Shown here in pieces: positions 13,884-32,227 of a stretch of DNA of 64,000 bases. The notes under the pieces were generated by a model. That model saw nothing but the letters and a program-made list of their open reading frames with translations, ran no database searches and was not told the origin of the DNA. Source of the DNA: Celeribacter baekdonensis (GTDB lineage: Bacteria > Pseudomonadota > Alphaproteobacteria > Rhodobacterales > Rhodobacteraceae). The position numbers were made by a program, and so were the translations under genes. How positions within the stretch are numbered: the stretch's first letter is position 1; each line of letters begins with the position of its first letter. Location of the stretch: contig NZ_FNBL01000018.1 of the NCBI RefSeq assembly GCF_900102315.1, forward strand, positions 1 to 64,000. Reading direction: 5' to 3'.

Positions 13884-13887
<4 letters not shown>
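12379..13887 (-). CDS. NAD(P)-dependent aldehyde dehydrogenase
   Basis: A classical ALDH superfamily enzyme of 502 residues that oxidises an aldehyde to its acid. The catalytic Glu lies in TLELGGKSPA and the catalytic Cys in NSGQVCVAGS. The cofactor site carries FTGSTEIGRH. The ATG at 13887 overlaps the stop of the 2Fe-2S gene (ATGA) and has AAGGACAGG upstream; the longer frame would intrude into that gene. It is the last gene of the leftward catabolic operon, so it probably acts on an aldehyde produced by the GMC oxidoreductase or the ThDP decarboxylase encoded upstream. The substrate cannot be read from the sequence. Confidence 0.93.
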
Positions 13888-14341
<454 letters not shown>

Positions 14342-14345
<4 letters not shown>

Positions 14346-17300: not shown

Positions 17301-17404
17301 TGGGACCAACGAAACTGATGCCCCGTGCCGCCGACTACGGCCTGCGCGCCTGTGGCGATCAGGGCCTCAGCCTCGGCCAATGTGCTGGGGTGGCTGATCC
17401 TCAT
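14342..17404 (-). CDS. Fused FAD-binding and molybdopterin subunits of a xanthine-dehydrogenase-family hydroxylase
   Basis: One 1020-residue chain with an N-terminal FAD domain (about 1-235; VVGGTGHQF near residue 22 and RRLATLGGNIGFG near 88). A Pro/Ser/Thr-rich linker (about 240-280) follows, and then the full molybdopterin domain (about 285-1010). The last contains GGAFGGKDE, GTCGAFRGFGANQ and the C-terminal GAGELGIGAVTPAI, where the Glu corresponds to the catalytic Glu of the family. In bacteria the medium and large subunits are usually separate genes. The neighbours (guanine deaminase and a purine-type transporter in the other arm) suggest hydroxylation of a purine or similar N-heterocycle. 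Xanthine itself is possible but not shown. Confidence 0.93.
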
Positions 17405-18252
17405 AGGGCCTCCGGCGTGGTCGTGCCAAAGGTCAGCCCCTTTTCTTTCAACCAGCGGCGATAGGCGACCGAGGAACTGTCGGCGCGGGTCGGGATTTCG
17501 CTGCGCGCCTCAAGCGGCAACAACAGCGGGCGCTGGTTTTCGACGATGATCCGGTCTTGCAGGAAAATCACCTGTTCAAAGCGCAAAAGCTGGGTATGGC
17601 TGGAGGTTTGATCGAGCAGATACATCACCGGTTGCGCGCGACACAGCCCCTCTTCGATTGGGTGGATGAACAGGGCGATGGCGTCGCGGCGACCGGGTTG
17701 ATCGGGGGCGTCACGGTAGAGCATGACGACAAAGGGGGTCGGCACGCGGTAGGTCAGTTGGGCGAATTCACCCTCGGGGCGGGTTGTGGTCATTTGCGGT
17801 TGAAAAAAGGTGCAATTGGTGGCCCATACTTCGTCCACATCACGGCGGATTTCGGATTTGTAAACCGGCACTTCGGTGTGCGGTTCAGAGCCCAAAATAT
17901 CGGTGTGGACAAAGGGAAAATGCGCCATGTCGAGGAAGTTTTCGACCACGCGCAGACCAGAGGCCCGCATCGTCACCCAGCCACAGGGCACAACCCGCCG
18001 CTCGGGCTCAAACCGCTCTTCGATTTCGAAAACGTCGGTATTTGGCGCGCCGAGCGTGGTCCAAAGACACTCGAATTTCTCCTGAATGGGCAGGGGTTTA
18101 CCCTTATGCACCACGGATTTCCCCGGACCGATGGTGATCGGGTGACCCAAGAGTTTTGTTTCCTCCACCCGGTCCAAATCGGTGAGCGTGGCGACTGCAT
18201 ACCATTGGTTGAGCGCGACGGGATCTTTGGTGCCTTGATGGGATGTCGGCAT
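17401..18252 (-). CDS. Rieske-less non-haem iron oxygenase catalytic subunit (NdmC-like)
   Basis: Homologous to the catalytic half of Rieske ring-hydroxylating oxygenases. The iron site NFLDMAHFPFVHTD (N-x2-D-x2-H-x4-H) lies near residue 115, and the third-ligand region LQDRIIVENQRP near residue 238. The N-terminal part still begins like the family (LNQWYAVATL), but the C-x-H and C-x2-H cluster ligands are absent and the region is shortened. NdmC, the 7-methylxanthine N-demethylase subunit, is known to lack its Rieske centre in the same way. A stand-alone Rieske protein is encoded in this operon. The ATG at 18252 has GAGGAG upstream and sits between gene stops. A clear paralogue lies at 31343-32227. 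Confidence 0.88.
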   Translation of the reverse strand: MPTSHQGTKDPVALNQWYAVATLTDLDRVEETKLLGHPITIGPGKSVVHKGKPLPIQEKFECLWTTLGAPNTDVFEIEERFEPERRVVPCGWVTMRASGLRVVENFLDMAHFPFVHTDILGSEPHTEVPVYKSEIRRDVDEVWATNCTFFQPQMTTTRPEGEFAQLTYRVPTPFVVMLYRDAPDQPGRRDAIALFIHPIEEGLCRAQPVMYLLDQTSSHTQLLRFEQVIFLQDRIIVENQRPLLLPLEARSEIPTRADSSSVAYRRWLKEKGLTFGTTTPEAL

Positions 18253-18263
18253 CAGCTTACTCC

Positions 18264-19634
18264 TCAATCGGTCCATTGCGCCGTGCCGCCGCCATTGGCG
18301 TCAAGCCAGACCTGGCGGCGGGAGAAATGCCCCGGTGTGAGGCGGTTCAGCCGGTCGATGATCTCGGTCACATCCCCGGTCACCAGCTTGCCGTCCTCGA
18401 CGCATATCTGGCCATTGACCATGGTCATGATGACGTCAGAGCCGCGCACCGCATGGACCAGATTGTGGTGAATGTTGAACCAACGCCCGTCGGCGTGAAA
18501 CGGCGTCATCCGGGGTGTGTCGCCGCGCAGGGCGATGATGTCGGCCTTTTTGCCCGGCTCCAAAGACCCGGTGACATCACCCAGCCCCACCGCTTCGGCC
18601 CCCAATGAGGTCGCCATGCGCAACACGTCCCAACTGTCCATCGCGGCGGCGTCGCGGTGGCGCAATTTGCCCTTGAGGGAGGCGAGTTTCATCTCTTCGA
18701 ACATGTCGAAATTGTTGTTCTCTTTCTCTCCATCCGTGCCAATGCCCACGGGTATGCCCGCCGCCAACATGTCGGAAATTGGCGCGATGCCGGAGGCCAG
18801 TTTCATGTTCGACACCGGGTTATGGGCGACCGAGACGTTGTGGTTTGAGATCAGGTCGATCTCTTCGGGAGAAAACCACACGGCATGGGCAAACATCGCC
18901 ATCGGGGTTTCAAAGAACCCCAGATCGCGAAACACCTCCATCGGCTTTTTGCCGTAGCGGGTTTTAAATTCGGCCAGCTCAATCTCAGCTTCGGAACAAT
19001 GGGTGTGAAAGCCGGTGTTGTGCTTTTTCGCCATGTCGATGGCGCGCTGTTGCCCGGCTTCATCGGCATAAAACAGATGCTCCAACCCGACCCAGACATT
19101 GACCCGGCCCTCAGCTTTGCCATGCCAACGCTCAATCAGCGCCTCGTTCATATCGAGCGTGTCGAAATAGTCGTAATCGGGATGCGCGCCAACATAAGGC
19201 ACGGCGACAATCCGGTTGCCAAGGATCTGAGCGGCGCGGGCCGAGCCCTCCATATAACGCCACATGTCGACCACCGTGGTGGTGCCCGCCAAGAGGCTTT
19301 CGGCATAGCACAGATAGCTTGCGGCCTCTGCCTCTTCGGGCAAAAGCACGCGGTGCATCGGGTTGATATGTTGGGTCAGCCAATCCCAAACCGGCAGGTG
19401 TTCGGCGGTGCCGCGCAGAAAGCCGGAATGGGCATGGGCATTGATCAGACCGGGCATCAACACCGCCCGCCCCATGTCTTTCACCGTGGCCTCCGGGTGC
19501 GCCGCGATGAGGTCGCGTGCGGTGCCCGTGGCCACAATCGTATCACCGCGCACCAAGACCGCACCATGGGGGATCACGGTCAGGTCCTTGTCCATGGTGA
19601 TAACGGCTTCGGCACTTAGGATCAGGTCAGACAT
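18264..19634 (-). CDS. Amidohydrolase superfamily deaminase (MtaD/Atz-type)
   Basis: A 456-residue metal-dependent hydrolase of the cytosine-deaminase-like amidohydrolase group. Metal ligands are seen in INAHAHSG (residue about 66), FHTHCSE (about 205), MFAHAVW (about 248) and GIGTDGEKEN (about 298). Enzymes of this family deaminate adenosine derivatives, methylthioadenosine, triazines or other aminated N-heterocycles. The neighbourhood favours an amino-purine or its ring-opened product. It overlaps the end of the GMC gene by 13 nt and is followed by the Rieske-less oxygenase. The exact substrate cannot be assigned. Confidence 0.88.
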   Translation of the reverse strand: MSDLILSAEAVITMDKDLTVIPHGAVLVRGDTIVATGTARDLIAAHPEATVKDMGRAVLMPGLINAHAHSGFLRGTAEHLPVWDWLTQHINPMHRVLLPEEAEAASYLCYAESLLAGTTTVVDMWRYMEGSARAAQILGNRIVAVPYVGAHPDYDYFDTLDMNEALIERWHGKAEGRVNVWVGLEHLFYADEAGQQRAIDMAKKHNTGFHTHCSEAEIELAEFKTRYGKKPMEVFRDLGFFETPMAMFAHAVWFSPEEIDLISNHNVSVAHNPVSNMKLASGIAPISDMLAAGIPVGIGTDGEKENNNFDMFEEMKLASLKGKLRHRDAAAMDSWDVLRMATSLGAEAVGLGDVTGSLEPGKKADIIALRGDTPRMTPFHADGRWFNIHHNLVHAVRGSDVIMTMVNGQICVEDGKLVTGDVTEIIDRLNRLTPGHFSRRQVWLDANGGGTAQWTD

Positions 19635-21160
19635 GCGTCCTCCAATATAAATTGCGCCGCCCGTTCACCGATCATGGTGACGGGGGCGTGGGTGTGACAG
19701 GCGGGGATGTCGGGAATGACGGAGGCGTCCGCGACCCAGAGGTCGCGAACGCCTTTGACGCCCAACCGAGGGGAAACGGGGGCGTCGATGTGCGTGCCCA
19801 TTTGGGCGGTGCCGCAACAGTGGAAAAAGGTCGAACAGGCGCGGCGCACGAAAGTGACGGCGTCCTCGCCCGAAACCCTCCGGTCCGGGGCGACGAAATC
19901 CGCGAAGAGGTGTGAAAAGCCGGGGGTGAGCACCATGTCCAACAGGAACTCGACCCCGGCCACGAGCGCCTTCAGATCGCGCGGGTCCGACAAGAGGTTT
20001 GGCTGAATGTTGAGCGGGTCATCCGGGGCGGTCCCGGTGAGGGTGATCCAGCCTTTGGAATAGGAACGCATGACACCAAGCCCGATGGCAAAGACATCGC
20101 CGTCGAGATCGTAATGATCCGAAAGCGCGGGCACGGCAGAGCGGGTTTGAATGGGGAAAGCCAAGAGATCGGCTTGGTCCAACTCGGGCGCGGATTTCCA
20201 AATCGACAGCGTGCCGCCGCCATTGCCTTTCATCGGGCCAAGCGGTGATGAGGCGCGGAAATTGAGAGCGCGCAGCAGCGGATGATCCTGAAGATTGCGA
20301 CCGATTTCGGGGGCGTGGAGGCGGGTTTTGAGGCCAAGACGAGACAGTTCCGCCTCATCGCCGATGCCTGAAAGCATCATCAAGCGCGGGGTTTCCAAAG
20401 CTCCGGCGGCGAGGATCACACCAGAGCGTGCGGTCAGTAGATGCTCCGCACCGTCTTTATACACACGGACACCGCTCGCGTGATCGCCGGAAAACGTCAG
20501 AGCCAAAGCACGGGTCTCGCAGAGGATCGTCAAACGCTCTGACGCCATGATAGGGCCAAGATAACCCATCGCTGAGGTCCAGCGCAGACCCTCGGGCGAG
20601 ATGTTGAAATTGGCAAGGCTGACGCCTATCGGCTCCGGTCCGTTTGGGTCCTCAACCACGGGTAGGCCCATGTCGGCCCCGCCTTTGAGCATGGCTTGGG
20701 CCAGGGGATGATCGGGGTCCGGGCGGGTGATCTGTAACGGGCCATCGCCGCCGCGCAAGGCGGTTTCTCCACCCTGCCACGTTTCGCAGGCTTTAAAGCT
20801 CGGCAGGCAGTCGTCCCACGACCATCCCGGCGCAACGGCGTCCCATCGGGCATAATCGGCGGGCACCCCGCGATACCACATCATCGCATTGGTGGCCGAA
20901 GATCCGCCCAAGCCTTTGCCGCGCGGGATTGGGATGTCGCGATTCAAAACCCGCTCAGTGGGGGTGTAGTGATGCCCCCAATCCCATGCGCCGGATTGCA
21001 GGCCAAACCACGCGCTCGGGTCTTCGATCTCCGCTACGCCAAAGGTGGATTTTCCCGCCTCGATCACCGCCACATCCGCGCCCGCATCATGCAGCCGGCG
21101 CGCCACGGCAGAGCCGCCTGAACCAGAGCCGATCACGATGTAATCAAAGGCGGTTTTCAT
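19622..21160 (-). CDS. GMC-family FAD-dependent oxidoreductase
   Basis: A 512-residue glucose-methanol-choline oxidoreductase that oxidises an alcohol group to an aldehyde or ketone. The FAD-binding GSGSGGSAVARRL lies at residues 12-24, the GMC signature PRGKGLGGSSATNAMMWYRG near 79-98, and the C-terminal His pair region FFHCCGTAQMG and ACHTHAP near 440-495. It is close to choline and alcohol dehydrogenase members. Its position next to an aldehyde dehydrogenase and a 2-oxo-acid decarboxylase suggests that it starts oxidation of a side chain. Confidence 0.93.
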   Translation of the reverse strand: MKTAFDYIVIGSGSGGSAVARRLHDAGADVAVIEAGKSTFGVAEIEDPSAWFGLQSGAWDWGHHYTPTERVLNRDIPIPRGKGLGGSSATNAMMWYRGVPADYARWDAVAPGWSWDDCLPSFKACETWQGGETALRGGDGPLQITRPDPDHPLAQAMLKGGADMGLPVVEDPNGPEPIGVSLANFNISPEGLRWTSAMGYLGPIMASERLTILCETRALALTFSGDHASGVRVYKDGAEHLLTARSGVILAAGALETPRLMMLSGIGDEAELSRLGLKTRLHAPEIGRNLQDHPLLRALNFRASSPLGPMKGNGGGTLSIWKSAPELDQADLLAFPIQTRSAVPALSDHYDLDGDVFAIGLGVMRSYSKGWITLTGTAPDDPLNIQPNLLSDPRDLKALVAGVEFLLDMVLTPGFSHLFADFVAPDRRVSGEDAVTFVRRACSTFFHCCGTAQMGTHIDAPVSPRLGVKGVRDLWVADASVIPDIPACHTHAPVTMIGERAAQFILEDACLT

Positions 21161-21174
21161 TGTCTTCCCGTGGG

Positions 21175-21783
21175 TCAGTTATGTTCAGAAGGGCCCATGA
21201 TGGTGATCCCTTCGGTGGCTTCGACATGGCGCACAAAAATGTATTTGTCCTCGCGCCCGTCCGAATGTTTGCGCTTGATCTCGGGCTGAACGGTGCCCGC
21301 GACCTTGGCGACGACAATATAGGGGTCATCACTGGCCAAACCCGCTTCGCAATGGGCGTCGAATTCGTCCAAAGTGCGGGCGGTGTAGGCGTGTGTCACC
21401 CCCGCGCCGCGCGCAATGGCGGCCAGATCGACGGTGCCCGAGGCGGTGTGGGTTTTTGGCCCGCCGATGGATTGGTACATCTCATTGTCCCAGACCACGA
21501 CAAACAGGTTTTTCGGTTTTTCATTGCCCAAAGTGGCCAGAATGCCGAGGTTGAACAACAGCCCGCCATCGGTGTCGAGCGAGATGATTTGACGCTCCGG
21601 CAGTCCCGCCGCCAGTCCAAAAGCCTGCGGCGTGACACAGCCCAATTGTTGCTGAAACAGCGAGGCGCTGCGCATATGCGGTGCGGCATTGTACCATTCG
21701 TCAACAGAGGCACCGAGTGAGAGCACCACCAATTCGTCGGAGAGGCGGGCGGCCAATTTTGTCATACACTCAAAGCGTTTCAT
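21175..21783 (-). CDS. ThDP-dependent decarboxylase, beta subunit (sulfopyruvate/phosphonopyruvate type)
   Basis: The pyrophosphate-binding half of a two-subunit thiamine-diphosphate enzyme. The ThDP motif is recognised as DTDGGLLFNLGILATL followed by a diverged N-E-M-Y-Q loop (residues about 70-110). Its start overlaps the alpha subunit stop (ATGA). The nearest families are ComE-type sulfopyruvate decarboxylase and the matching part of phosphonopyruvate decarboxylase. There are no sulfonate or phosphonate genes nearby, so the substrate is probably another 2-oxo acid. The product would be an aldehyde, matching the aldehyde dehydrogenase at the operon end. Confidence 0.88.
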   Translation of the reverse strand: MKRFECMTKLAARLSDELVVLSLGASVDEWYNAAPHMRSASLFQQQLGCVTPQAFGLAAGLPERQIISLDTDGGLLFNLGILATLGNEKPKNLFVVVWDNEMYQSIGGPKTHTASGTVDLAAIARGAGVTHAYTARTLDEFDAHCEAGLASDDPYIVVAKVAGTVQPEIKRKHSDGREDKYIFVRHVEATEGITIMGPSEHN

Positions 21784-22280
21784 CGCACGATACTCCCCGA
21801 GAGCGCCACGGCGGTGTGGTAATAAGACGAATAGGCCAGCTCATAGGCGTCAAAAATCGCCTGTTCGATCCGCTCCTCTTCGCGTTCGACCACATAGGGG
21901 ATGCGCAGCGCTTGCAGCACCGGTTCCATGGTCACGCCATGCGGCACCGCCCACCAATTGTTTTCGCCCATATCGCCGCGATAGCTCATCAGCATCACAA
22001 CCGGGATGCCCGCGCCCAATCCCATCCGCGCAAGCGGTTCAACAGAGGCGCGCAGACCGGAGTTTTCCATCACCAAGGCCGCGCGTTTGCCCGACAGGAA
22101 CACACCGCCGCAAATGGCAGCACCTTCTCCTTCGTTGGTGACTTGGATGGTGCGAATATCCGGGTCGGCATCGAGCGCCGGATAGAGTTCTTTGAACAGC
22201 GAATCCGGCAGGTAACATACGATGCTCACACCCGCCCGTTTGAGCCCTCGGATCACCGCATCTACGGCGCTTTGCTGCAT
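21780..22280 (-). CDS. ThDP-dependent decarboxylase, alpha subunit
   Basis: The pyrimidine-binding half of the two-subunit ThDP enzyme, 166 residues. It carries the conserved Glu in TNEGEGAAICGG (residue about 53) that activates the cofactor, and a ComD-like opening (VIRGLKRAGVSIVCYLPDS). The ATG at 22280 is chosen because GGAGG lies 6 nt upstream; the frame is open for 11 more codons without a site. The split into two small subunits is known from ComD/ComE sulfopyruvate decarboxylase. Confidence 0.88.
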   Translation of the reverse strand: MQQSAVDAVIRGLKRAGVSIVCYLPDSLFKELYPALDADPDIRTIQVTNEGEGAAICGGVFLSGKRAALVMENSGLRASVEPLARMGLGAGIPVVMLMSYRGDMGENNWWAVPHGVTMEPVLQALRIPYVVEREEERIEQAIFDAYELAYSSYYHTAVALSGSIVR

Positions 22281-22381
22281 GTCGAACCTCCAAATATCAC
22301 GCGTCACACTCAACTTGTCAGAGTGGCTATGTTCCGAAAAGACGATGATTTCTCAACGAGATGTTCGTCTGAACGCAACAC

Positions 22382-23305
22382 TTAGGATTTGAGTCCCTCC
22401 ATGGTGGAGGTGAGCGAGGCGGAGAGCGCCAAGGCGGCCTCAGAGGCTTCGCCTTTGGGGCGGGCAATGAGCGACAGGCGGCGCAGGCCAAGGCCCGCAT
22501 CCGCGAGCGGGATGAAGACAAGATGGCCGCGGGTGATCTCATTTTGCACGCCAAGCCGGGTCTGAAGGATCGTGCCCAGCCCGCGAATGGCCAGATCAAT
22601 CATCAGGCCGATGGAATTGGTCCGGGCGCGGCGGGAAAATTCCACGAAAGAGCCGGAAAACATCTGTTCGACCGAACTGCCGAGCGTCAAAGAGGCGTCC
22701 GAGAGGATCACCCGCTCACCGGCCAATTCATAGGCTTTTATGGGCCGATTTTCTTTGGTCAGGGCACTTCCGGGTGGCACCAACACCCCCAAGGGCAGGG
22801 CAACAGAGCCCAAACGGCGGGCATTGCGCGGCACCCGCACGTCAAAGGCCAAGGCCAAATCCGCCTCGCCCTGATTGACCAAATCCACGGCCTCCTGTGA
22901 GCCGGTGACACGGACATCGACGCTGATTTCGGGATGGCGCACCCAAAATCCGGCCAACACTTCGGGCAAAAGCCCGCGTGCGGCACTTTCGATCACCGCC
23001 AGGGTCACGGTGCCCCGGCGCAACCCATGCAGGTCGTTGATCTCGGTCAGCGCCCGGTTCATTTCGCCGGTCGATTGGCCGATGTGATAGGCCAAAAGTT
23101 CGCCCGCTGAGGTCAGTTTCAGCCGTTGTTTGGTGCGTTCAAACAGCGGTGTGTCGAGGTCCTCTTCGAGCTGTTTGATGGTGCGCGAGATCGAGGAGGG
23201 CGCCACATTGAGCGACAGCGCCGCCTGCCGGATCGACCCCAGCCGCGCCACCAACATAAAGTGGTGGACGCGCGAGGACACGAGGCCGAGCCGGTGCAGA
23301 TCCAT
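22382..23305 (-). CDS. LysR-family transcriptional regulator
   Basis: A 307-residue LysR-type regulator. The N-terminal winged helix-turn-helix is seen in FMLVARLGSIRQAALSLNVA followed by SSISRTIKQLEEDLDTPLF (residues about 15-55), and a LysR substrate-binding domain follows. The ATG at 23305 overlaps the stop of the GST gene by one nucleotide (TGATG). Unusually for this family it lies inside and in the same direction as the operon it may control, not divergent from it. Its likely target is the 24851-25210 region, where a T-N11-A type dyad is present. The co-inducer is presumably the purine-like substrate. Confidence 0.92.
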   Translation of the reverse strand: MDLHRLGLVSSRVHHFMLVARLGSIRQAALSLNVAPSSISRTIKQLEEDLDTPLFERTKQRLKLTSAGELLAYHIGQSTGEMNRALTEINDLHGLRRGTVTLAVIESAARGLLPEVLAGFWVRHPEISVDVRVTGSQEAVDLVNQGEADLALAFDVRVPRNARRLGSVALPLGVLVPPGSALTKENRPIKAYELAGERVILSDASLTLGSSVEQMFSGSFVEFSRRARTNSIGLMIDLAIRGLGTILQTRLGVQNEITRGHLVFIPLADAGLGLRRLSLIARPKGEASEAALALSASLTSTMEGLKS

Positions 23306-23934
23306 CAGTGGTAATCCGGGATGCCGGGCATGACGATAAAGCCCGGTGTGGCGCGCACCCGCCGTGCCCAAAGCCGCAGGGCGGGAAAAGCGTCATGGTC
23401 AATATTGCAATCGCGGCTGAGCGCAAAGGCGGGGAATAGCGCAAGATCGGCCAGCGTGATCTCTGCCCCGGCGAAAAAGCCCAGACCTTTGACGTCCTGC
23501 GCGCTCATGTGATCCTCCATGATCCGCAGCAAAGCGCGGGTCTGGGCAAGGGTTGCGGGGCCATCACCGGGCACATCCATGATCGAAATCGCGCGGGCGG
23601 TGGTGGCAACCGACAGGTCATGTTCTGCGAAAAACAGCCAATCCGTCATCTGTGCCAGTTCGGACGTATCCGTCGGCAAAAGCCGCTTTTGCGGGTCCAA
23701 TCCCGCCAAATAGAGCAAAATCGCCCCGGTTTGGCGCAGGGTTGCCTCCGCCGTTTCCAAGATCGGCAAGCGCCCCAAAGGGTTCAGCGTCAGATAGGGC
23801 GGGGAGACCTGTTCCATGCCGGGGAACATATCGACATTGCGCAATTCCACCGAAAGGTCGCAACAGGAGGCCACAAGCCGCACGCGGTAGCAGGCGTCAT
23901 CCAGATCATAATTGTGCAAGACAAGCTGGGTCAT
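23305..23934 (-). CDS. Glutathione S-transferase family protein (NdmE-like by context)
   Basis: A 209-residue protein with an N-terminal thioredoxin-like half (LVLHNYDLDDACYRVRLVAS, cis-Pro in GRLPILE near residue 56) and an all-helical C-terminal half with the GAEITLADLALFP N-capping motif. It matches cytosolic GST architecture. It lies between the Rieske protein and the LysR gene and is translationally coupled to both. In Pseudomonas putida CBB5 the GST homologue NdmE is required to assemble the NdmC-NdmD 7-methylxanthine demethylase; a similar scaffold role is inferred here. A true glutathione transfer or isomerase role in ring breakdown is the main alternative. Confidence 0.88.
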   Translation of the reverse strand: MTQLVLHNYDLDDACYRVRLVASCCDLSVELRNVDMFPGMEQVSPPYLTLNPLGRLPILETAEATLRQTGAILLYLAGLDPQKRLLPTDTSELAQMTDWLFFAEHDLSVATTARAISIMDVPGDGPATLAQTRALLRIMEDHMSAQDVKGLGFFAGAEITLADLALFPAFALSRDCNIDHDAFPALRLWARRVRATPGFIVMPGIPDYH

Positions 23935-24590
23935 TGGGCGGTCTCTTTGAGGGGGGCTTCTACATCGCGGCGCAGGGTGGCGAGTTGGTCGAGCAGGCTG
24001 AGGCGGATCGCGGTGGGCGTGTCTGAGGGCAGGGTGATGTGCAGCGCCGAATGGTCGGCGTCTATGCTGTGCAGGCCGAGGGTCGGCCGGGTCTCTCCCA
24101 ACGTGGCGGTGATCAGCGATCCGGTCTGCGTGACCTGTAAGGCCAAGGTGTGCAACCCGGCCAAGACCGCATCCAGAGGCGCGTCGATATAGAGGCTGCG
24201 CAGCCCGTCCATCTCGGGCGCGTTTGGTCCGACCTCGGGCATCTCGCCCAAAGGCAATGCGGTCCAGATCATGCCGCCCGCCTCCGCCACCGCATAGCGG
24301 GTGACGCAGATTGACGGTGGCACCTCCAAATCCGGATGCGCCGGAATGTAGCGGCAGGTGCCAGTCTCGTCATATTCCCAGCCGTGATAGAGGCAGGCGA
24401 TGTGATCGCCGCGCACAAAGCCAAAGCTCATTTTCATGCCGCGATGGGGACAACGGTCCTCCCACGCGTGCGCTTTGCCGCCGGTGTCGCGCCAAACCAC
24501 GATCTCCGCGCCATGCACCGCCGTGCCCGCCGATGTGCCGGGGGCAATACAGCGTGACAGGGCGATCGGCACCCATCCAGTTTCACTCAT
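23931..24590 (-). CDS. Stand-alone Rieske 2Fe-2S protein
   Basis: A 219-residue protein with an intact Rieske cluster site, CPHRG and CLYHGW (about residues 47-70), in a domain resembling the N-terminal part of ring-hydroxylating oxygenases. The remaining 110 residues lack the N-x2-D-x2-H-x4-H iron site, so it is not an oxygenase by itself. This is exactly the part missing from the two Rieske-less oxygenases, and it probably delivers electrons to them. No flavin reductase is found in the window. The ATG at 24590 has GGAGAAGAG upstream; an upstream in-frame extension is rejected. Confidence 0.92.
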   Translation of the reverse strand: MSETGWVPIALSRCIAPGTSAGTAVHGAEIVVWRDTGGKAHAWEDRCPHRGMKMSFGFVRGDHIACLYHGWEYDETGTCRYIPAHPDLEVPPSICVTRYAVAEAGGMIWTALPLGEMPEVGPNAPEMDGLRSLYIDAPLDAVLAGLHTLALQVTQTGSLITATLGETRPTLGLHSIDADHSALHITLPSDTPTAIRLSLLDQLATLRRDVEAPLKETAQ

Positions 24591-24850
24591 GTCTCTTCTC
24601 CTTTGGCGGGGTTGTCCGCCTGTCGTGTGACCTCGTGGACGATGCAATCCTGTGGCCCGAGGCTGAGCGCCATTTCAAACGCATCCACCAAATCGCGCTG
24701 TCCAATCACCCGCAATTTCGCAACTGCATCATTTTGCATCACAGTTGAGAGGGTGATGGACAATCTTGAGGCACGGTGTTGCGCAAACTCGGCAAAACTC
24801 TCGCGTGGAATCTGTCCCGTAAAGGTGAATGTCACGCGGTCAATCTGCAT
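24587..24850 (-). CDS. Small acylphosphatase-fold-like protein, first gene of the leftward operon
   Basis: An 87-residue protein overlapping the Rieske gene (ATGA). The length and pattern (MQIDRVTFTFTGQI, then LRVIGQRDLVDAFEMALSLG, then CIVHEVTRQ) resemble the ferredoxin-like fold of acylphosphatases. The usual catalytic loop G-x-V-Q-G-V-x-F-R is replaced by GQIPRESFAEF, so phosphatase activity is unlikely. Its role is unknown. As the leading gene coupled to the Rieske protein it may be a small accessory or binding subunit. The fold call is from pattern only. Confidence 0.6.
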   Translation of the reverse strand: MQIDRVTFTFTGQIPRESFAEFAQHRASRLSITLSTVMQNDAVAKLRVIGQRDLVDAFEMALSLGPQDCIVHEVTRQADNPAKGEET

Positions 24851-25210: not shown

Positions 25211-26335
25211 ATGATCTCCACCAAATCCCTGTCCCGCCGTGGGTTTCTCAATATGGGCGCCGCTGCCGGGGCCAGTTTGATCCTGCCGAAAACCGGGGTG
25301 ATCAAACCCGCCTATGCGGCTGGCCCTTTGGCACCCGTGGCCGAAGCTGACGCGCATATCGCATTCGGTCACACTGGGCCGACGTCCGACGAAGGCTGGA
25401 CCTGGGCGCATGACCAAGGGATGAAAGCGGTCGAAGCCGCCTTCCCGGCGCTGCGCACCTCCTATGTCGAGTCGATCCCCTATTCGGCCGATGCCACCCG
25501 GATTTTCCGCCAATTCGTCGCTGACGATGCCTGCATGGTCTTTGCCACCTCGAACTATGGTGATTTCTTGTACGACGTTGCCAAACGCGCCCCCGACGTG
25601 GCGTTTTACGAATGCGATGGCCGCAATCCGATGGACAATTTGGGCACCTATTATGTCGCCCATTGGTATCCGTCCTATGTCGCCGGGATCGCGGCAGGGG
25701 CGATGTCGAAAACCGGCAAGCTGGGCTATGTTGCCTCCTTCCCGGTGCCCTCGGTCTATTCCGGCACCAATGCGTTCCTCATGGGCGCGCGCACGGTCAA
25801 CCCGGAGGCCACGCTGCAATCCATCGTCATCAACAGCTGGTTTGATCCGCAGGCCGCGACCCAAGCCGGTGTGGCGCTGATTGATGCGGGTTGTGATGTG
25901 TTGTTTGGGATCATGGATGAGGCCGGTTACCTTCAGGTCGCCGAAGAACGGGGTGCCAAGGCCGTGATGTGGAACACCGATCTGCGGCGCTATGGTCCAA
26001 ATGCCTATATCTCCTCGATCATGGTCGATTTTGGCCCATGGTATGTCGAACAGGTGCGTCGCCGTTTGGCGGGCGAATGGACGCCGACCTATGACCTCTT
26101 GCCCTTTGGGGCCGGTGTGGATGTGGATGCTTGGGGCGAAACCGTTCCGGCCGATGTCGCGGCCAAGGCGGATGCGGTCAAGGCCTCGATCCTGGATGGG
26201 TCGTTCAACCCGTTCATGGGCGAGATCAAAGACTCCAAAGGCACCATCAAAGTCGCCGCAGGTCAGACCATGACGGAGGAAGAGCTTTACCATTGGAATT
26301 GGTCGATCGAAGGGGTTTCCGGTCTGGACAGCTGA
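25211..26335 (+). CDS. BMP-family (PnrA-like) substrate-binding protein of a nucleoside-type ABC transporter, Tat-exported
   Basis: A periplasmic binding protein of 374 residues. It begins with a twin-arginine signal (SRRGFLNMGAAAGASLILP), then shows the BMP/Med pattern: HTGPTSDEGWTWAHDQG near residue 53, ATSNYGDFLYDVA near 112 and GYVASFPVPSVYSGTNAF near 173. BMP-family proteins bind purine nucleosides and related bases. It is the first gene of the rightward operon and is followed 3 nt later by the ATPase gene. Confidence 0.92.
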   Translation: MISTKSLSRRGFLNMGAAAGASLILPKTGVIKPAYAAGPLAPVAEADAHIAFGHTGPTSDEGWTWAHDQGMKAVEAAFPALRTSYVESIPYSADATRIFRQFVADDACMVFATSNYGDFLYDVAKRAPDVAFYECDGRNPMDNLGTYYVAHWYPSYVAGIAAGAMSKTGKLGYVASFPVPSVYSGTNAFLMGARTVNPEATLQSIVINSWFDPQAATQAGVALIDAGCDVLFGIMDEAGYLQVAEERGAKAVMWNTDLRRYGPNAYISSIMVDFGPWYVEQVRRRLAGEWTPTYDLLPFGAGVDVDAWGETVPADVAAKADAVKASILDGSFNPFMGEIKDSKGTIKVAAGQTMTEEELYHWNWSIEGVSGLDS

Positions 26336-26338
26336 TCC

Positions 26339-27910
26339 ATGAGCGAGGATTCGATCCAACAGCGTCTCGGGCTTGCCTCCGGGACGCCCCCTTTGGTCGC
26401 CCTCAAAGGCGTGTCCAAATATTTCCCCGGCGTGGTCGCCAATGAGGACGTGGATCTTGCGGTGTACCCCGGCGAGATCCACGCGCTTTTGGGCGAAAAC
26501 GGTGCCGGGAAATCGACGCTGATGAATATGTTGACCGGCATCTATCACATGGATGCGGGCGAGATCATCATGGACGGGGAAAGCCGCCGCTTTGCCTCGC
26601 CGCTTGATGCCATCGCCGCCGGGATTGGCATGGTGCATCAGCATTTCAAATTGGTCAAAGCCTTCACCGTGGCCGAAAACATTCACCTTGGTTGGAACGC
26701 CACCCCGGCGCGGATTTCGCGCAAGGCGCTGGAAGAGCGGACCATGAATTTGGCCGACACGCTTGGCCTTGCGGTCAAGCCGGGGGCGGTTGTTGCCGAT
26801 CTGTCAACGGGCGAACAACAACGGGTCGAAATCCTGCGGGTGTTGGCGCGCGATGCCAAAGTCCTGATCCTTGATGAACCCACCGCCGTGTTGACCCCCT
26901 CGGAGGCACGCGACCTGTTTGCGGCGCTTAGGGCCTTTGTGGCGCGGGGCAATGCGGTGATTTTCATCTCGCATAAACTCGACGAGGTGATGGAGATTTC
27001 CAACCGGGTGAGCATTTTGCGCGCGGGTCGCAAGGTCGCGACCGAATGGACGACGGACTGTTCCGAAAAATCATTGGCGCAATTGATGGTTGGGCGCGAA
27101 ATCGTCTTTAACGACATGCGCGGCGATGGCGGCGCACGCAAGATTGGCGTGCCGATGGTGACGCTTGAAGATGTCACGCTGAGCTCTGAGTATGGCACAG
27201 TGTTGAAAAACGTCTCGCTCTCGGTGCGCGCCGGAGAAATCCTTGGCATCGCTGGGGTTGCGGGCAATGGTCAGCGCGAATTGACCTATGTGTTGAGCGG
27301 GCTTGTCGCGCCCTCCAAGGGCACGGTTACACTGGATGGCGAAGATGTCGGACGCGCTGGCGCGCGGGCCTTTGCGCAAAAGGGCGTGGGTCATATTCCC
27401 GAAGATCGGCTTTATGCCGGGATGGCACCAACCCTGTCGATCACCGACAATGCGGTGCTGCGCGAATATACGATGCCGCCGCTGTCAAACGGGCCGTGGT
27501 ATGCGCCGCGTCGTGCCCTCGCCTTGGCGTGCGAGATCGCCAAGATTGCCGGGGTGATGGTGCCGGATTTTGCCATGCCTGCGCGCAACCTGTCGGGCGG
27601 CAACCAACAGCGCCTGGTCGCGCGGCGCGAAATGCGCATTGCCGATAAGGTGCTGATCGCGGCCTACCCGTCACGCGGGCTTGATGTCGGCGCGATCAAC
27701 ACGATGATGCGCTATTTCGTTGAGATGCGGGACCGTGGCGTCGCCGTGGTGTTGATCTCCGAGGAGCTGGAAGAAGTGCTGAACCTCGCCGATCGGATTG
27801 CGGTGATGTTTCATGGCGAGATTATGGGCGTGGTTGCGGCCCAAGGCGCAGATATCGAACAGATCGGCCTGATGATGGGCGGACAAAGACAACAGGGACA
27901 GGCCGCATGA
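26339..27910 (+). CDS. ABC transporter ATPase with two nucleotide-binding domains (nucleoside/sugar type)
   Basis: A 523-residue tandem ATPase. The first domain has Walker A GENGAGKST, signature LSTGEQQRVEI and Walker B LILDEPTAVLT. The second has the looser P-loop GVAGNGQREL, signature LSGGNQQRLVA and a degenerate Walker B region (LIAAYPSRGLDVGA). This asymmetry is usual for ribose/nucleoside-type importers such as the BMP-associated systems. It energises the two permeases encoded next to it. Confidence 0.95.
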   Translation: MSEDSIQQRLGLASGTPPLVALKGVSKYFPGVVANEDVDLAVYPGEIHALLGENGAGKSTLMNMLTGIYHMDAGEIIMDGESRRFASPLDAIAAGIGMVHQHFKLVKAFTVAENIHLGWNATPARISRKALEERTMNLADTLGLAVKPGAVVADLSTGEQQRVEILRVLARDAKVLILDEPTAVLTPSEARDLFAALRAFVARGNAVIFISHKLDEVMEISNRVSILRAGRKVATEWTTDCSEKSLAQLMVGREIVFNDMRGDGGARKIGVPMVTLEDVTLSSEYGTVLKNVSLSVRAGEILGIAGVAGNGQRELTYVLSGLVAPSKGTVTLDGEDVGRAGARAFAQKGVGHIPEDRLYAGMAPTLSITDNAVLREYTMPPLSNGPWYAPRRALALACEIAKIAGVMVPDFAMPARNLSGGNQQRLVARREMRIADKVLIAAYPSRGLDVGAINTMMRYFVEMRDRGVAVVLISEELEEVLNLADRIAVMFHGEIMGVVAAQGADIEQIGLMMGGQRQQGQAA

Positions 27911-28974
27911 GCTACCGTTTGCAACGTATGCCGGTCGCGGCCCCAAGCGTGTTGTTCGCCGCGCGGGTGCTGTCGGTGATCTTGGCGCTTTTGACCGCCG
28001 CCGTCGTGTTGGCCCTGTCCGGCAAAGACCCGGTGGCGCTGGGCGGCAAGGTGTTGTCGTCGACCTTCGGGTCAAGTTTTGGACTTGAGGATTTGAGCCT
28101 GTTGTTTTCGCCATTGCTCTATTGTGGTCTCGCGGTCGCGGTCGGCCTGCGCATCGGTGCGTGGAACATTGGGGCGGAGGGGCAATTCAACCTTGGGGCC
28201 TTTGCCGCCACAGGTGTGGCACTGTTCGTGCCGGGCCCGACCTGGCTTTTGGTGCCTTTGATGGCGCTCACTGGCATGGCGGGCGGAGCGCTTTGGATCC
28301 TGATCCCGACATTGGCCAAAGCCTATGCGGATGTGTCTGAGTTGATCACCACGCTGTTGATGAATTTCGTCGCACTTTTGTTGGTCTATTGGGTCGCCAC
28401 CGGCCCTTGGCTTGATCCGTCGGGCATGGCTTTGGCGACCACAGCGCGGCTGTCTGTTTCGGTGCCCTATGTCTGGGGGATCGTGCATTGGGGGCTGCCT
28501 GTGGCGCTGATGCTCGCGATCGGTTTGGCCGTGATGTTTGCCTATACGCGCTGGGGCTATGAGGTGCGCATCGGGGGGGGCAATCCGGGTGCTGCCGCCT
28601 ATGCCGGGATGCCGGTACAGCGTCATGTGATCATCGTCATGTTGATGTCGGGCGCCATCGCCGGGCTTGGTGGTATGATGGAAGTGGCCGGAACGGTCGG
28701 GCGGCTTCAGGGCGGGATTTCCAACAATTACGGCTATCTGGGCATTATGGTCGCGGTTCTGGCCCGCGCCGCCCCTTTGGGTGTGATTGCCACGGCGTTT
28801 TTCATGGCGGTGATCCTGAATGGCGGGATCGTTTTGCAATCTCAGGGCCTTACCACGCATACGGTTTTGGCCGTCACCGGGCTGATCCTGTTTTACGCCG
28901 CCATCGCCGACGAGGTCGCGCGCTATAGGTTGATCCCCACGACTGGAAAAGTCACACCCAAAGGAGCGCGCTGA
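27907..28974 (+). CDS. ABC transporter permease (nucleoside type), subunit 1
   Basis: A 355-residue membrane protein with about ten hydrophobic segments of the branched-chain amino acid/ribose permease fold. The GAEGQFNLGAFAATG motif is characteristic of the larger BMP-system permease. It overlaps the ATPase stop by 4 nt. It forms the membrane pore together with the product of the following gene. Confidence 0.94.
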   Translation: MSYRLQRMPVAAPSVLFAARVLSVILALLTAAVVLALSGKDPVALGGKVLSSTFGSSFGLEDLSLLFSPLLYCGLAVAVGLRIGAWNIGAEGQFNLGAFAATGVALFVPGPTWLLVPLMALTGMAGGALWILIPTLAKAYADVSELITTLLMNFVALLLVYWVATGPWLDPSGMALATTARLSVSVPYVWGIVHWGLPVALMLAIGLAVMFAYTRWGYEVRIGGGNPGAAAYAGMPVQRHVIIVMLMSGAIAGLGGMMEVAGTVGRLQGGISNNYGYLGIMVAVLARAAPLGVIATAFFMAVILNGGIVLQSQGLTTHTVLAVTGLILFYAAIADEVARYRLIPTTGKVTPKGAR

Positions 28975-28975
28975 C

Positions 28976-29911
28976 ATGGATATTCTCGCAGGTCTGATCC
29001 AAACCGCCTTTTTGGCCGGGGGCGTCTTGGCGCTGGCCGCATTGGGCGAGGTTTTGGCCGAACGTGTTGGCGTGGTGAACCTTGGCGTCGAAGGCCTGAT
29101 TGCATTGGGCGCGATGTCAGCGGTGGCCACGGTGGTGGTCACGCCGCACCCTTGGTTGGGCTTTTTGGTTGCCATGGGCGTGGGGTTGATTGCGGGGATG
29201 ATTTTTGCCACCGCCACGGTGATCATCCGCGCCAATCAGGTTCTGTGCGGCTTGGCACTCACCTATATGGGGATGGGCTTGGCCGCCACCTTGGGCAAAC
29301 CGATTTCTGGCTCGCCCGCACCCGCGACCTTTCAGGACATCCATATCCCGATCCTGTCCGATCTGCCGTTTTTTGGCCGCGCGTTCTTTAGCCATTCGCT
29401 TTTGGTCTATCTGATCTTCCTCGTGTTGCCTGTGGCTCTGCAGGTTTTGATGTTTCACACCCGTCATGGCCTCAACATGCGCGCCGTGGGCGAAAACCCG
29501 GCGGCGGCAGATGCGGCGGGGATTTCGGTGATGAAAATGCGATTTTGGTATGTCTCTTTCGGCGCGGCTTTGGCGGCAGGGGCAGGAGGCTATCTGACCT
29601 TGGTCTTTGTCCCAAGCTGGTCCGAGGGCGTTGTCGCAGGGCGCGGCTGGATCGCCGTCGCCTTGGTGATTTTCGCCGGATTTCGCCCGATCAACGCCGT
29701 GCTGGCCGGGCTATTGTTCGGTTTTGTCACCGCCTTGGGCTTTGTCGGCCAGGCGCATAATTGGCCGATTGCGTCCTCCATCCTCTCGATGTTGCCCTAT
29801 CTGGGCACCATGGCATTGATGATCGTGCCTGTTCTGGCATGGCAACGGATGCGCCGCCTGATGGCCGCACCCGAAGGCCTCACCACCCCCTATTTCCGAG
29901 ATCAAAGATGA
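28976..29911 (+). CDS. ABC transporter permease (nucleoside type), subunit 2
   Basis: A 311-residue membrane permease. It has LAALGEVLAERVGVVNLGVE at its start, the matching motif of the smaller BMP-system permease, and about eight membrane segments. It starts 1 nt after the previous permease and overlaps the following deaminase gene as ATGA. The four transporter genes make a complete high-affinity importer, probably for a purine nucleoside or base. Confidence 0.94.
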   Translation: MDILAGLIQTAFLAGGVLALAALGEVLAERVGVVNLGVEGLIALGAMSAVATVVVTPHPWLGFLVAMGVGLIAGMIFATATVIIRANQVLCGLALTYMGMGLAATLGKPISGSPAPATFQDIHIPILSDLPFFGRAFFSHSLLVYLIFLVLPVALQVLMFHTRHGLNMRAVGENPAAADAAGISVMKMRFWYVSFGAALAAGAGGYLTLVFVPSWSEGVVAGRGWIAVALVIFAGFRPINAVLAGLLFGFVTALGFVGQAHNWPIASSILSMLPYLGTMALMIVPVLAWQRMRRLMAAPEGLTTPYFRDQR

Positions 29912-31317
29912 GCACAACCTTCCTTAAAAACATCTCCTATCTGGCCACGTTTGATGACGGGTATGGCGAGGTCGGGCGCGAAATGACGGATGGCGGCGTG
30001 CTGATCCGGGACAATGTGATCGTCGCGGTCGGGCCGATGTCGGAGTTTGTCGATGTGGTGGCGGACCGGGTGTTGGATCTGTCCGACCATGTGGTGATGC
30101 CGGGGATGATCAATACCCATCATCATTTCTACCAAAACCTCACGCGGGTGATGGTTCAGGATGACGAACTCTTCGTCTGGCTCAAAACCCTCTATCCGAT
30201 CTGGGCAAAACTCGATGATCGGGCGATGGAAACCGCTTCGCGCATGGCCATGGCCGAGTTGATCATAAGCGGCTGTACCACCTCTTCGGATCACCAATAT
30301 ATCATGCCCAATGATTGCACCTTGGACACGCCCATTCGGGTGGCCCAAGAGATGGGTCTGCGCTTTCATGCGGCGCGGGGCGCGATGAGTCGGGGCGAGA
30401 GTAAAGGCGGTCTGCCGCCCGACAGTTGCGTGGAGGAGGAAGAGGCGATCCTGATGGATGCCGAACGCCTGATCCACCGCTATCACGACATGTCGGATTA
30501 CGCGATGACGCGGATTGTTTTGGCGCCCTGTTCGGCCTTTTCCGTCACCCAAGGCTTGATGAAAGACGCGGCGCGATTGGCACGGATGCATCCCGGTGTG
30601 CAGCTGCATTCGCATATCGCCGAGGTGCTGAGCGAAGAGGAATATTGCATCGCCACCTACGGCATGCGTTCGGTCGCCTATGCCGAAAGCTGTGAGTGGC
30701 TCGGTCCCGATGTGTGGTTTGCCCATGCGATTTTCCTCAATGACGCCGAGATCAAAACCTTTGCCGAGACCGGCACCGGAGCCACCTTTTGTCCCTCCGC
30801 CCATATGCGCTGCGGCCTTGGCATCATGCGGGCGCGCGAGATGTTGGACGCGGGCGTGACGGTGGGTTTGGGCGTCGACGGGTCGGCCTCAAATGACACC
30901 TCCAACATGTTCATGGAGGCGCGCATGGCGCAATATTTGCAACGGGTCGCGCCGGACCGCTACCTGTCCGAGGCCCCCGGTGGGCGGGGCGGATTTGGCG
31001 GCACACCGGGGGCACTGTCGGCGCGCGAGGCGCTTTGGATGGCGACGCGGGCGGGGGCGAAACTTTTGGGGCGCGACGACATTGGGCAATTGGCCCCCGG
31101 CAAATCCGCCGATATCATCGCAATCAAACGCACGCGGCTTGGCCTTGCGGGCACCCAGCGCGATCCTTTGGCTGCCCTTGTGATGTGCGGTCCGTTTGAG
31201 GTTGATCATTCCTTCATCAATGGGGTGCAGATCATTGACCAAGGTGCCTTCACGCGTCTGGACGTGGCGGCCGCTTTGGCCGATCATGCCGCAACGATGG
31301 ATCGTATTTACGCCTGA
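29908..31317 (+). CDS. 8-Oxoguanine-deaminase-like amidohydrolase
   Basis: A 469-residue amidohydrolase with metal ligands in MINTHHHFYQNLTRVM (residue about 70), QLHSHIAEV (about 235), WFAHAIF (about 272) and GLGVDGSASNDTSN (about 325). The HHH-x-Y-Q-x-L-T-R-V motif and SASND loop are those of the group in which 8-oxoguanine deaminase was defined. It converts an aminated purine to its oxo form. The start is the ATG overlapping the permease stop, since the frame upstream lies inside that gene. It could also act on an N-methylated guanine. Confidence 0.88.
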   Translation: MSTTFLKNISYLATFDDGYGEVGREMTDGGVLIRDNVIVAVGPMSEFVDVVADRVLDLSDHVVMPGMINTHHHFYQNLTRVMVQDDELFVWLKTLYPIWAKLDDRAMETASRMAMAELIISGCTTSSDHQYIMPNDCTLDTPIRVAQEMGLRFHAARGAMSRGESKGGLPPDSCVEEEEAILMDAERLIHRYHDMSDYAMTRIVLAPCSAFSVTQGLMKDAARLARMHPGVQLHSHIAEVLSEEEYCIATYGMRSVAYAESCEWLGPDVWFAHAIFLNDAEIKTFAETGTGATFCPSAHMRCGLGIMRAREMLDAGVTVGLGVDGSASNDTSNMFMEARMAQYLQRVAPDRYLSEAPGGRGGFGGTPGALSAREALWMATRAGAKLLGRDDIGQLAPGKSADIIAIKRTRLGLAGTQRDPLAALVMCGPFEVDHSFINGVQIIDQGAFTRLDVAAALADHAATMDRIYA

Positions 31318-31342
31318 GCCCAAATTTTAAAGGATGCATAAA

Positions 31343-32227
31343 ATGGCGACAGAGACAGATGGGTCGGTGCTGGACCCCGCCACGCTCGATCAATGGTATT
31401 GCATTCAAAATCTGGCCGAAATCCCGCCCTCCGGGCTGACGACCCGGCTTTTGGGTCAGGATATTTTCATCACCGGCGGGGCGGCTGCGATGGCGCGCTG
31501 TGGGGATAGGGAATTGCCCGTGCGACTGCGATACGGCTATCTTTGGGTCACATTGGGCGCGCCCAACACCGATGTGCCGCATATCTCAGAGGCGGATGAA
31601 CTGGATCGCCGCTATGTCCCTTGCGGCGCGGTGAAGGTGAAATCCTCGGCCCCGCGTGTGATCGAGAATTTTCTGGATATGGCGCATTTTCCCTTTGTGC
31701 ATACCGACATTCTTGGGTCCGAAGAACATTCGGAGGTCGAGACATACAAATGCGAAATCCGCCGCGATGTGGATGAGGTCTGGGCCACCGATTGCGTCTT
31801 TACCCAACCGCAGGCTGCCAAATCCGCAAGCGGCGCGATCCGCACCGATTATATCTACCGTATCACCACGCCGTTTACCGTGTTGCTGTATAAAACCTGT
31901 CCAATGTCTGAAACGCGCTGGGATGTGATTTGCCTGTTCGTGCAACCGATGGAGCCGGGCCTGTGTCGCGCACATCCGGTGATGTTCTTGCTGGATGAGA
32001 CCAGCACGGATGCCGATCTGATCGGGTTTCAACAGGTGATCTTTCTGCAAGACCGGATCATTTTGGAAAACCAACGCCCGCGCCTGTTGCCGTTAGAGCC
32101 GCGGTTTGAGACCCCAACCCGCGCCGATGCCTCCTCCATCGCTTATCGGCGTTGGTTGAAAGAAAAGGGCTGTGTTTACGGTACAACTTTGGGGCCGGCG
32201 GATACATTTACCGTCACTGCGGCATGA
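31343..32227 (+). CDS. Rieske-less non-haem iron oxygenase catalytic subunit, second paralogue (NdmC-like)
   Basis: A 294-residue paralogue of the protein encoded at 17401-18252. It shares the iron site NFLDMAHFPFVHTDILGSE, the segment RRDVDEVWAT, the C-terminal LQDRIILENQRP and a near-identical end (YRRWLKEKG). It too lacks the C-x-H and C-x2-H Rieske ligands. The ATG at 31343 has AAAGGA 8 nt upstream; another ATG three codons earlier is inside that site. It sits between the 8-oxoguanine-deaminase-like gene and guanine deaminase, which ties the oxygenase to purine substrates. Two paralogues may act on two positions or two related substrates. Confidence 0.88.
   Translation: MATETDGSVLDPATLDQWYCIQNLAEIPPSGLTTRLLGQDIFITGGAAAMARCGDRELPVRLRYGYLWVTLGAPNTDVPHISEADELDRRYVPCGAVKVKSSAPRVIENFLDMAHFPFVHTDILGSEEHSEVETYKCEIRRDVDEVWATDCVFTQPQAAKSASGAIRTDYIYRITTPFTVLLYKTCPMSETRWDVICLFVQPMEPGLCRAHPVMFLLDETSTDADLIGFQQVIFLQDRIILENQRPRLLPLEPRFETPTRADASSIAYRRWLKEKGCVYGTTLGPADTFTVTAA

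Follow-up and report, generated by a model that had tools for sequence, protein, structure and literature searches.

Overall organization of the locus

The stretch analysed here, referred to throughout as the window, comprises 64,000 nucleotides of contig NZ_FNBL01000018.1 from Celeribacter baekdonensis (assembly GCF_900102315.1, positions 1 to 64,000). It contains the genes for two oxygenase catalytic subunits without a Rieske domain (cat1 and cat2), a stand-alone Rieske protein (Rsk) and a GST-fold protein (Table 1). Rieske oxygenases normally carry both of their metal centres on a single protein. In the window the [2Fe-2S] cluster and the mononuclear iron are not found together on cat1, cat2 or Rsk, and no full-length oxygenase gene was found at this locus.

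The Rsk and GST genes overlap by 4 nucleotides, as expected from the coupling proposed in the first-pass annotation of this DNA, and the distance from Rsk is 5.7 kilobases (kb) to cat1 and 6.7 kb to cat2. The open reading frame (ORF) map also fits the earlier proposal that two catalytic subunits accompany one Rieske/GST pair. The Rsk frame is open to position 24647, with an ATG at 24590 that was used as the start in the first-pass annotation. The shorter starts chosen there for cat1 (18252) and cat2 (31343) are equally possible.

The catalytic subunits and the Rieske protein

The catalytic subunits match the Pfam VanA_C model with 59.5 bits for cat1 and 75.6 bits for cat2 (cut-off 23.5). The KshA_C model matches less well, falling below its cut-off for cat1 and slightly above it for cat2, and cat1 also has a sub-threshold match to DUF7202. 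Neither protein matches any Rieske model in Pfam; both contain the iron motif NFLDMAHFPFVH and lack the Rieske cluster ligands. Rsk has the complementary set of features: it matches the Rieske model with 81.6 bits (cut-off 20.3), has no match to any Pfam catalytic-domain model, and contains the cluster ligands in the segments CPHRG and CLYHGW without the iron motif. The first-pass annotation had described the three proteins in these terms, and the ORFs, the Pfam matches and the motif checks bear it out.

The same division recurs in related loci. The window and related loci together yielded 119 cat-like frames, and the motif N-x2-D-x2-H-x4-H without C-x-H...C-x2-H is present in 114 of them. Of the remaining five, four are full-length oxygenases and one is a gene half lost at the edge of a locus. 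The iron-site residues are invariant in alignments of 23 and of 52 sequences. This recurring split of the motifs is not the product of chance. In cat1, the presumed iron ligands, by analogy with the family, are His119, His124 and Asp241; Asn113 and Asp116 are also conserved.

cat1 and cat2 share 57% sequence identity. Comparison of 18 cat1-type with 17 cat2-type sequences identified three differing positions that are each at least 90% fixed, namely (in cat1 numbering, cat1 type/cat2 type) 188 (Arg/Lys), 234 (Glu/Gln) and 245 (Val/Leu). These fixed differences are consistent with distinct substrates for the two types. We note that the Arg/Glu pair at 188 and 234, fixed in the 18 cat1-type sequences, is Lys/Gln in the 17 cat2-type sequences and is possibly a substrate or interface switch.

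Structures were predicted for cat1 (predicted local distance difference test score, pLDDT, 89.1) and Rsk (pLDDT 96.0), and both models show the overall fold of an oxygenase alpha-subunit over nearly the whole chain. The cat1 model superposes end to end on SxtT, with 267 residues aligned to residues 1-334 of the SxtT chain (Z score 32.8, root-mean-square deviation 1.8; Foldseek template-modelling score 0.84 by query length). The Rsk model aligns over 217 of its 219 residues with residues 3-307 of DdmC (Z score 20.0, root-mean-square deviation 2.7) and also matches GxtA (Z score 18.9). Because this alignment takes in almost the full length of DdmC, the C-terminal half of Rsk resembles a catalytic domain that has shrunk, and the predicted protein as a whole looks like an alpha-subunit with a reduced, iron-less catalytic domain. 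The first-pass annotation had called it a free Rieske carrier; it is indeed a stand-alone protein, but the profile comparison described below and the fold match to DdmC make it look like more than a carrier.

A profile comparison of 52 cat with 46 Rsk sequences pairs cat residues 21-112 with Rsk residues 3-144 (probability 94.8, E value 5e-8). The alignment contains a gap of about 50 residues in cat, which covers all four cluster ligands. Together with the fold matches of cat1 and Rsk, this gap makes both chains look like complementary degenerate alpha-subunits.

Relationship to NdmCDE

A known precedent for such a division is NdmCDE of Pseudomonas putida CBB5. In PMC4408171, NdmC is described as an N7-demethylase that lacks a Rieske cluster and is powered by NdmD, and NdmE is postulated to act as a scaffold. 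NdmC was absent from the solved structures returned for cat1 by the sequence search, and it was therefore located by synteny at locus L221, which belongs to the same family group as G539. Proteins at L221 match NdmA and NdmB with 660 and 704 bits, respectively, and a Rieske-reductase fusion there, whose ferredoxin domain matches NdmD (6icm_D) with 131 bits, is adjoined by NdmC and NdmE. The references used for NdmC and NdmE are thus the L221 set beside the NdmA/NdmB orthologues and not the sequences of CBB5 itself.

Against this set, identity to NdmC is 45% for cat1 and 46% for cat2, that of Rsk to the NdmD N-terminus is 37% over 173 residues, and the GST-fold protein is 35% identical to NdmE over 202 amino acids. 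The kinship of all three parts with NdmCDE that had been suspected from the window's sequence is therefore upheld.

In the tree of catalytic subunits, all 50 sampled Rieske-less subunits, NdmC included, form one clade (support 99/98) when contrasted with five full-length oxygenases (NdmA, NdmB, HpxD and two others); a placement of the window's subunits far from NdmC, which would have spoken against the kinship, is not seen. The window type is a clade of 25 (98/97). In the Rieske tree, 49 sampled Rsk proteins and fused Rieske parts group together against the same five oxygenases (100/99), and the 17 fused Rieske parts make up one group (97/98), within which three ferredoxin-only fusions form a subgroup. 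An earlier Rieske tree likewise placed all fused proteins on one side of a branch. Judged by these trees, the parts share ancestry with NdmCDE and are not an independent invention, and the first-pass claim of an independently arranged version is not sustained.

The cat trees separate fused from split forms less sharply than the Rieske trees, and the change may have been either fusion or fission. An earlier cat tree recovered a split clade with only 81% SH-aLRT support and left one split locus (L181) outside it; in another, the fused group requires two changes but a single clade is not rejected (p-AU 0.456). In the 50-subunit tree the catalytic subunits of the fused type stand on several branches, and L181 and L233, both split, stand on a further one. 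The outgroups are distant, and there are long branches.

The GST-fold protein matches the Pfam GST_N and GST_C models. In an alignment that kept 87 of 97 proteins (195-235 amino acids), position 68 is acidic in 30 of the 87 and is a glutamine in the window protein. The acidic residue at this position is part of the glutathione-binding motif. The pattern at residue 68 agrees with a structural role, as postulated for NdmE (PMC4408171).

Proposed mechanism

We consider it highly probable that the locus encodes a heteromeric Rieske monooxygenase in which the task of the alpha-subunit is split over two chains, whatever its substrate. The motifs, kinship, predicted folds and synteny were computed; from them we infer the assembly, the electron path and the substrates. 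Electrons from NAD(P)H would enter via a reductase, probably of the PDR/VanB type, whose gene would lie in another part of the genome. They would pass to the [2Fe-2S] cluster of Rsk and then cross between subunits to reach the mononuclear iron of cat1 or cat2, where O2 would be activated. The GST-fold protein would tether the chains, the role postulated for NdmE. The two catalytic subunits, each in a purine-type operon, probably share a single Rsk/GST pair. Both halves would descend from full-length alpha-subunits, cat having lost the segment with the cluster ligands and Rsk having lost the iron site and part of the catalytic domain.

Distribution and gene architectures

Relatives of cat1 with E values of 1e-20 or better are present in 22 of 295 genomes of the same family, that of the window included. 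A Rieske protein and a GST lie in the same 18-20 kb stretch at 20 of the 21 other family loci, a count that leaves out the continuation locus L034; in two (L051 and L052) the Rieske protein is fused, and L053 is the one locus without the pair. One copy, at L054, is broken by frameshifts. A search of the phylum gave matches in 23 of 398 genomes, the weaker of which include full-length oxygenases (L188-L190), so that this figure is not a count of the family.

The contigs of other genomes were scanned for the best 80 of 568 relatives, and the taxonomic make-up of this set is therefore biased towards near relatives of cat1. Rsk and GST are both present in the fetched stretch at 56 of these best 80 loci. 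For 18 of the remaining 24, where the stretch ended early, a search of the genome gave an Rsk-like match in every case (167-222 bits in 17 and 107 bits in the genome of L087), counted anywhere in the genome irrespective of nearness to cat. In the last six (L065, L067, L070, L073, L082 and L119) the missing gene or genes are on another fetched locus of the same contig. The counts within fetched stretches rest on score thresholds that we set ourselves, and several loci share a genome or contig.

The Rieske proteins at 95 loci were labelled by script as stand-alone (84), fused (10) or full-length (3). We take two of the 84 (L055 and L056; 328 amino acids) to be full-length oxygenases, and one of the ten fused proteins (L180) is a ferredoxin-only fusion. 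Four architectures are found. In the first, that of the window and most of the sampled relatives, all parts are separate and no NdmD-type reductase is near. In the second, a separate reductase gene follows directly: L233 (7623-11773) has Rsk, two cat genes, GST and a PDR-type reductase as five consecutive genes, and L187 has Rsk, one cat, GST and then the reductase. In the third, Rsk is fused to a plant-type ferredoxin only, as identified by Pfam at L180 (8104-9360) and L226 (8463-9698) and by sequence and tree position at L229 (9935-11338). The fourth is the NdmD type, with Rsk fused to a flavin reductase and a ferredoxin. The fusions of the third kind, which have no flavin domain, are unusual two-cluster proteins, and the L233 run offers the most clear-cut natural set of parts to reconstitute.

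Unfused sets are found in many alphaproteobacteria, and NdmD has the look of a single fused lineage within a modular system. Two catalytic subunits per Rieske protein are found in the window type, on pSymA of Sinorhizobium meliloti and at L182, L183 and L233; the tree of catalytic subunits suggests that these arrangements arose by separate duplications.

Plasmid pRt1078 of Rhizobium tumorigenes carries the cluster in the same order as the window, minus the amidohydrolase AH2, and Rhodococcus locus L089 carries a cat1-type set. The cat1-type genes at L089 and L087 (a short contig), both titled Rhodococcus, suggest transfer between phyla. In C. baekdonensis B30 (L112), identity is 90-98% over the cat2 half. 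Loci L055-L057 are clusters of P. putida and a Klebsiella pneumoniae plasmid with homologues of NdmC, NdmD and NdmE; they also contain a TIM-barrel protein, 2-oxoglutarate oxygenase genes and a nucleobase symporter, with HpxO in P. putida.

Neighbouring genes and possible substrates

Table 1. Genes of the proposed divided oxygenase and its surroundings in the window.
Gene product	Position	Strand	Basis
cat1, Rieske-less catalytic subunit	17401..18276	-	ORF, Pfam, alignment, model
cat2, second Rieske-less catalytic subunit	31334..32227	+	ORF, Pfam, alignment
Rsk, stand-alone Rieske protein, 219 amino acids	23931..24590	-	ORF, Pfam, model
GST-fold protein, NdmE counterpart, probably structural	23305..23934	-	ORF, Pfam, 35% identity to L221 NdmE
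LysR-type regulator	22382..23305	-	Start and family name read from sequence alone
Thiamine diphosphate (ThDP) enzyme, N-terminal half, sulfopyruvate decarboxylase alpha-like, below cut-off	21780..22313	-	Family search
ThDP enzyme, C-terminal half	21175..21783	-	Family search
GMC oxidoreductase, choline-dehydrogenase-like, below that family's cut-off	19622..21160	-	Family search
AH1, amidohydrolase, nearest solved structure an MTA/SAH deaminase	18264..19634	-	Family and structure-sequence search
Xanthine-dehydrogenase-like molybdenum subunit with N-terminal extension	14342..17404	-	PucD 687 bits over residues 283-1010, below cut-off of 783.65
[2Fe-2S] small subunit of the same molybdenum hydroxylase	13884..14345	-	Named by sequence and position
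Aldehyde dehydrogenase	12379..13959	-	Among the 25 matches shown, several aldehyde dehydrogenase families, none reaching its cut-off
BMP-family ABC transporter binding protein	25211..26335	+	PF02608 117.9 bits, above cut-off; ABC_BMP_B6 63.9 bits, below cut-off of 400
ABC transporter ATPase and two permeases	26339..29911	+	Named from sequence; frequent beside the module in relatives
AH2, amidohydrolase of 8-oxoguanine deaminase type	29908..31317	+	565 bits, above curated cut-off of 532; PDB entry 7ww2, 449 bits
AH3, amidohydrolase of guanine deaminase type	32152..33546	+	363 bits, just below cut-off of 375

Judged by spacing, the minus-strand genes from Rsk through GST, LysR, the ThDP-enzyme halves, GMC, AH1, cat1 and the molybdenum hydroxylase to the aldehyde dehydrogenase form an apparent operon, and the divergent plus-strand run of BMP-type importer, AH2, cat2 and AH3 forms another. 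The LysR frame is listed to 23371, with a Met codon at 23305 that adjoins the GST gene, and the longest AH3 frame runs into cat2, so that its real start may be further downstream. The N-terminal extension of the molybdenum subunit may be a shortened flavin subunit.

The neighbours of cat2 include guanine and 8-oxoguanine deaminases and a BMP-type importer, and a modified guanine is the most likely substrate for oxidation by cat2. Our first choice of reaction, though on its own less likely than not, is N-demethylation, such as that of 7-methylguanine to guanine. cat1, in an apparent operon with the xanthine-dehydrogenase-like enzyme, probably acts on a second purine-like substrate. The genome of the window contains four BMP genes, and among the 21 family loci such a gene is present in the fetched stretch at 13. 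Komagataeibacter melaceti (L086) and Rhodococcus (L089) have cat1 but not cat2 in the fetched stretches, and many other loci have only cat2; the two therefore look like independent modules that share Rsk and GST here. The neighbourhood is of purine type. The N-methylated purine proposed in the first-pass annotation is a candidate substrate, and the 8-oxoguanine deaminase, like the GMC, ThDP and aldehyde dehydrogenase genes, allows for other oxidations. The loci suggest an undescribed route for the breakdown of modified guanine.

The missing reductase

The expectation that the reductase is encoded elsewhere fits the search result: with an NdmD-like query no NdmD-type reductase was found on the contig of the window, where the query matches Rsk alone. 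In the rest of the genome the query gave strong PDR-type reductase matches on contigs 20, 22 and 31, three in all, together with a weak one on contig 23. Two of the strong candidates are near other Rieske oxygenases, and the third sits in an operon that is presumably of the dimethylamine-monooxygenase type, so that none of the three was assigned as the partner. The separate reductase downstream in L187 and L233 hints at the nature of the partner that is missing from the window.

Assessment of the interpretation

Several observations weigh against the proposed divided oxygenase. The predicted structures are those of cat1 and Rsk as single chains, and their complex is a proposal. None of the strong PDR-type genes could be assigned, because all three adjoin other oxidation genes. 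The cat at L053 (14939-15787) has no Rsk or GST in the fetched stretch, and the L187 cat (9784-10476) is an open frame without its first 60-70 residues or so, shortened or broken, so that this locus may be defective. AH2 is present at only 18 of the best 80 of 568 loci, in stretches that end at 8 kb. Simple demethylation does not explain the GMC, ThDP and aldehyde dehydrogenase genes. Finally, none of the window genes looked at was recognised as part of a formaldehyde-oxidising pair, although no dedicated search was made; this weakens the case for N-demethylation, as the CBB5 map includes frmA and frmB (PMC4408171).

The substrate might instead be a nitrogen heterocycle of another kind (a pterin, for example) or a purine bearing a carbon side chain on which the GMC, ThDP and aldehyde dehydrogenase enzymes act. 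The genes for these enzymes accompany cat1 even in distant bacteria, Rhizobium tumorigenes and Rhodococcus included, but the guanine- and 8-oxoguanine-deaminase types, the xanthine-dehydrogenase-like enzyme and the purine-linked relatives speak for an ordinary purine, and we regard this explanation as rather improbable.

As the rival to demethylation by cat2, we judge it unlikely that the same split oxygenase hydroxylates a purine at C8 without demethylation, for example converting guanine to 8-oxoguanine for deamination to urate by AH2. Such a role would agree with the score of AH2 above the curated 8-oxoguanine deaminase cut-off, with the annotation of the related full-length HpxD as a molybdenum-independent xanthine hydroxylase, and with the fact that no formaldehyde gene was recognised among the window genes examined. 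It would, however, make the guanine deaminase redundant; many cat2 loci show a guanine-deaminase gene without AH2 in the fetched stretch, and the characterised Rieske-less relative, NdmC, is an N7-demethylase (PMC4408171).

It is very unlikely that cat1 and cat2 are fed by a general ferredoxin or by the Rieske domain of another oxygenase, with Rsk and GST serving something else in the operon. The window Rsk is several kilobases from either catalytic gene, and at L053, where Rsk and GST are absent from the stretch, a full-length oxygenase lies about 6-7 kb from cat. In many relatives, however, Rsk, cat and GST are directly adjacent and often overlap, and Rsk is kin to NdmD, which powers NdmC (PMC4408171). 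As an observation on L053 itself, its full-length oxygenase might supply electrons in trans. The idea that the genes are decayed, functionless remnants, for which the frameshifted relative L054 could be cited, is scarcely credible given the open frames and the iron-site residues that are invariant in 23 and 52 aligned sequences.

Returning to the proposed divided oxygenase, we give about even chances to a broader view, in which it represents a widespread class of heteromeric Rieske oxygenases made of complementary degenerate alpha-subunits, one chain lacking the cluster loops and the other the iron site, joined by a GST. Rsk would be a shared electron hub that accepts different catalytic chains, here for two modified purines, and NdmD of caffeine degraders a lineage in which hub and reductase are fused. 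If so, the locus would exemplify one version of a modular family that many alphaproteobacteria possess. What is new is the view of both halves as complementary wrecks, the wide occurrence of the unfused form, the probable sharing of one Rsk/GST pair and the separate reductase in two relatives. Electron transfer from a Rieske cluster to the iron normally runs across alpha-subunits. Naturally divided systems would make this step approachable with separately purified parts, and swaps of catalytic chains on one hub would directly probe substrate specificity.

Comparison with known systems

Homologues of ndmCDE in 18 further organisms, of unknown function, are described in PMC4408171, and partial ndm sets are reported in PMC8055839. 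A 2025 review (PMC12445004) covers NdmA, NdmB and NdmD, with no discussion of NdmCDE in the sections available, and PMC12904279 concerns a stachydrine demethylase and has no bearing on this locus. Among the papers listed by the literature searches, none was recognised as dealing with a divided form that has two catalytic subunits, and the novelty stated here is relative to those searches.

The closest known system is NdmCDE of P. putida CBB5, which likewise has a catalytic subunit without a Rieske domain, the cluster on another chain and a GST-like third protein (PMC4408171). It differs in that the Rieske domain of NdmD is fused to a reductase, whereas the window Rsk carries this domain alone; the window also has two catalytic subunits and a context of guanine, 8-oxoguanine and a xanthine-dehydrogenase-like enzyme. 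Homologues of ndmCDE whose function is unknown occur in Sinorhizobium, Mesorhizobium, Klebsiella and Pseudomonas (PMC4408171), and the S. meliloti, Klebsiella and Pseudomonas sequences fall within the same Rieske-less clade as the window type. On S. meliloti pSymA two catalytic subunits are adjacent, and the window also has two, but the homologues of these four genera have a fused NdmD-type Rieske-reductase.

The SxtDIOX enzymes SxtT and GxtA are the nearest solved structures by sequence for cat1 and Rsk, and the nearest fold for cat1, but they have both metal sites on one chain and act on another substrate. HpxD is a distantly related oxygenase annotated as acting on a purine, with a separate PDR/VanB-type reductase gene adjoining; it differs in being a full-length alpha-subunit that lies outside the Rieske-less clade.

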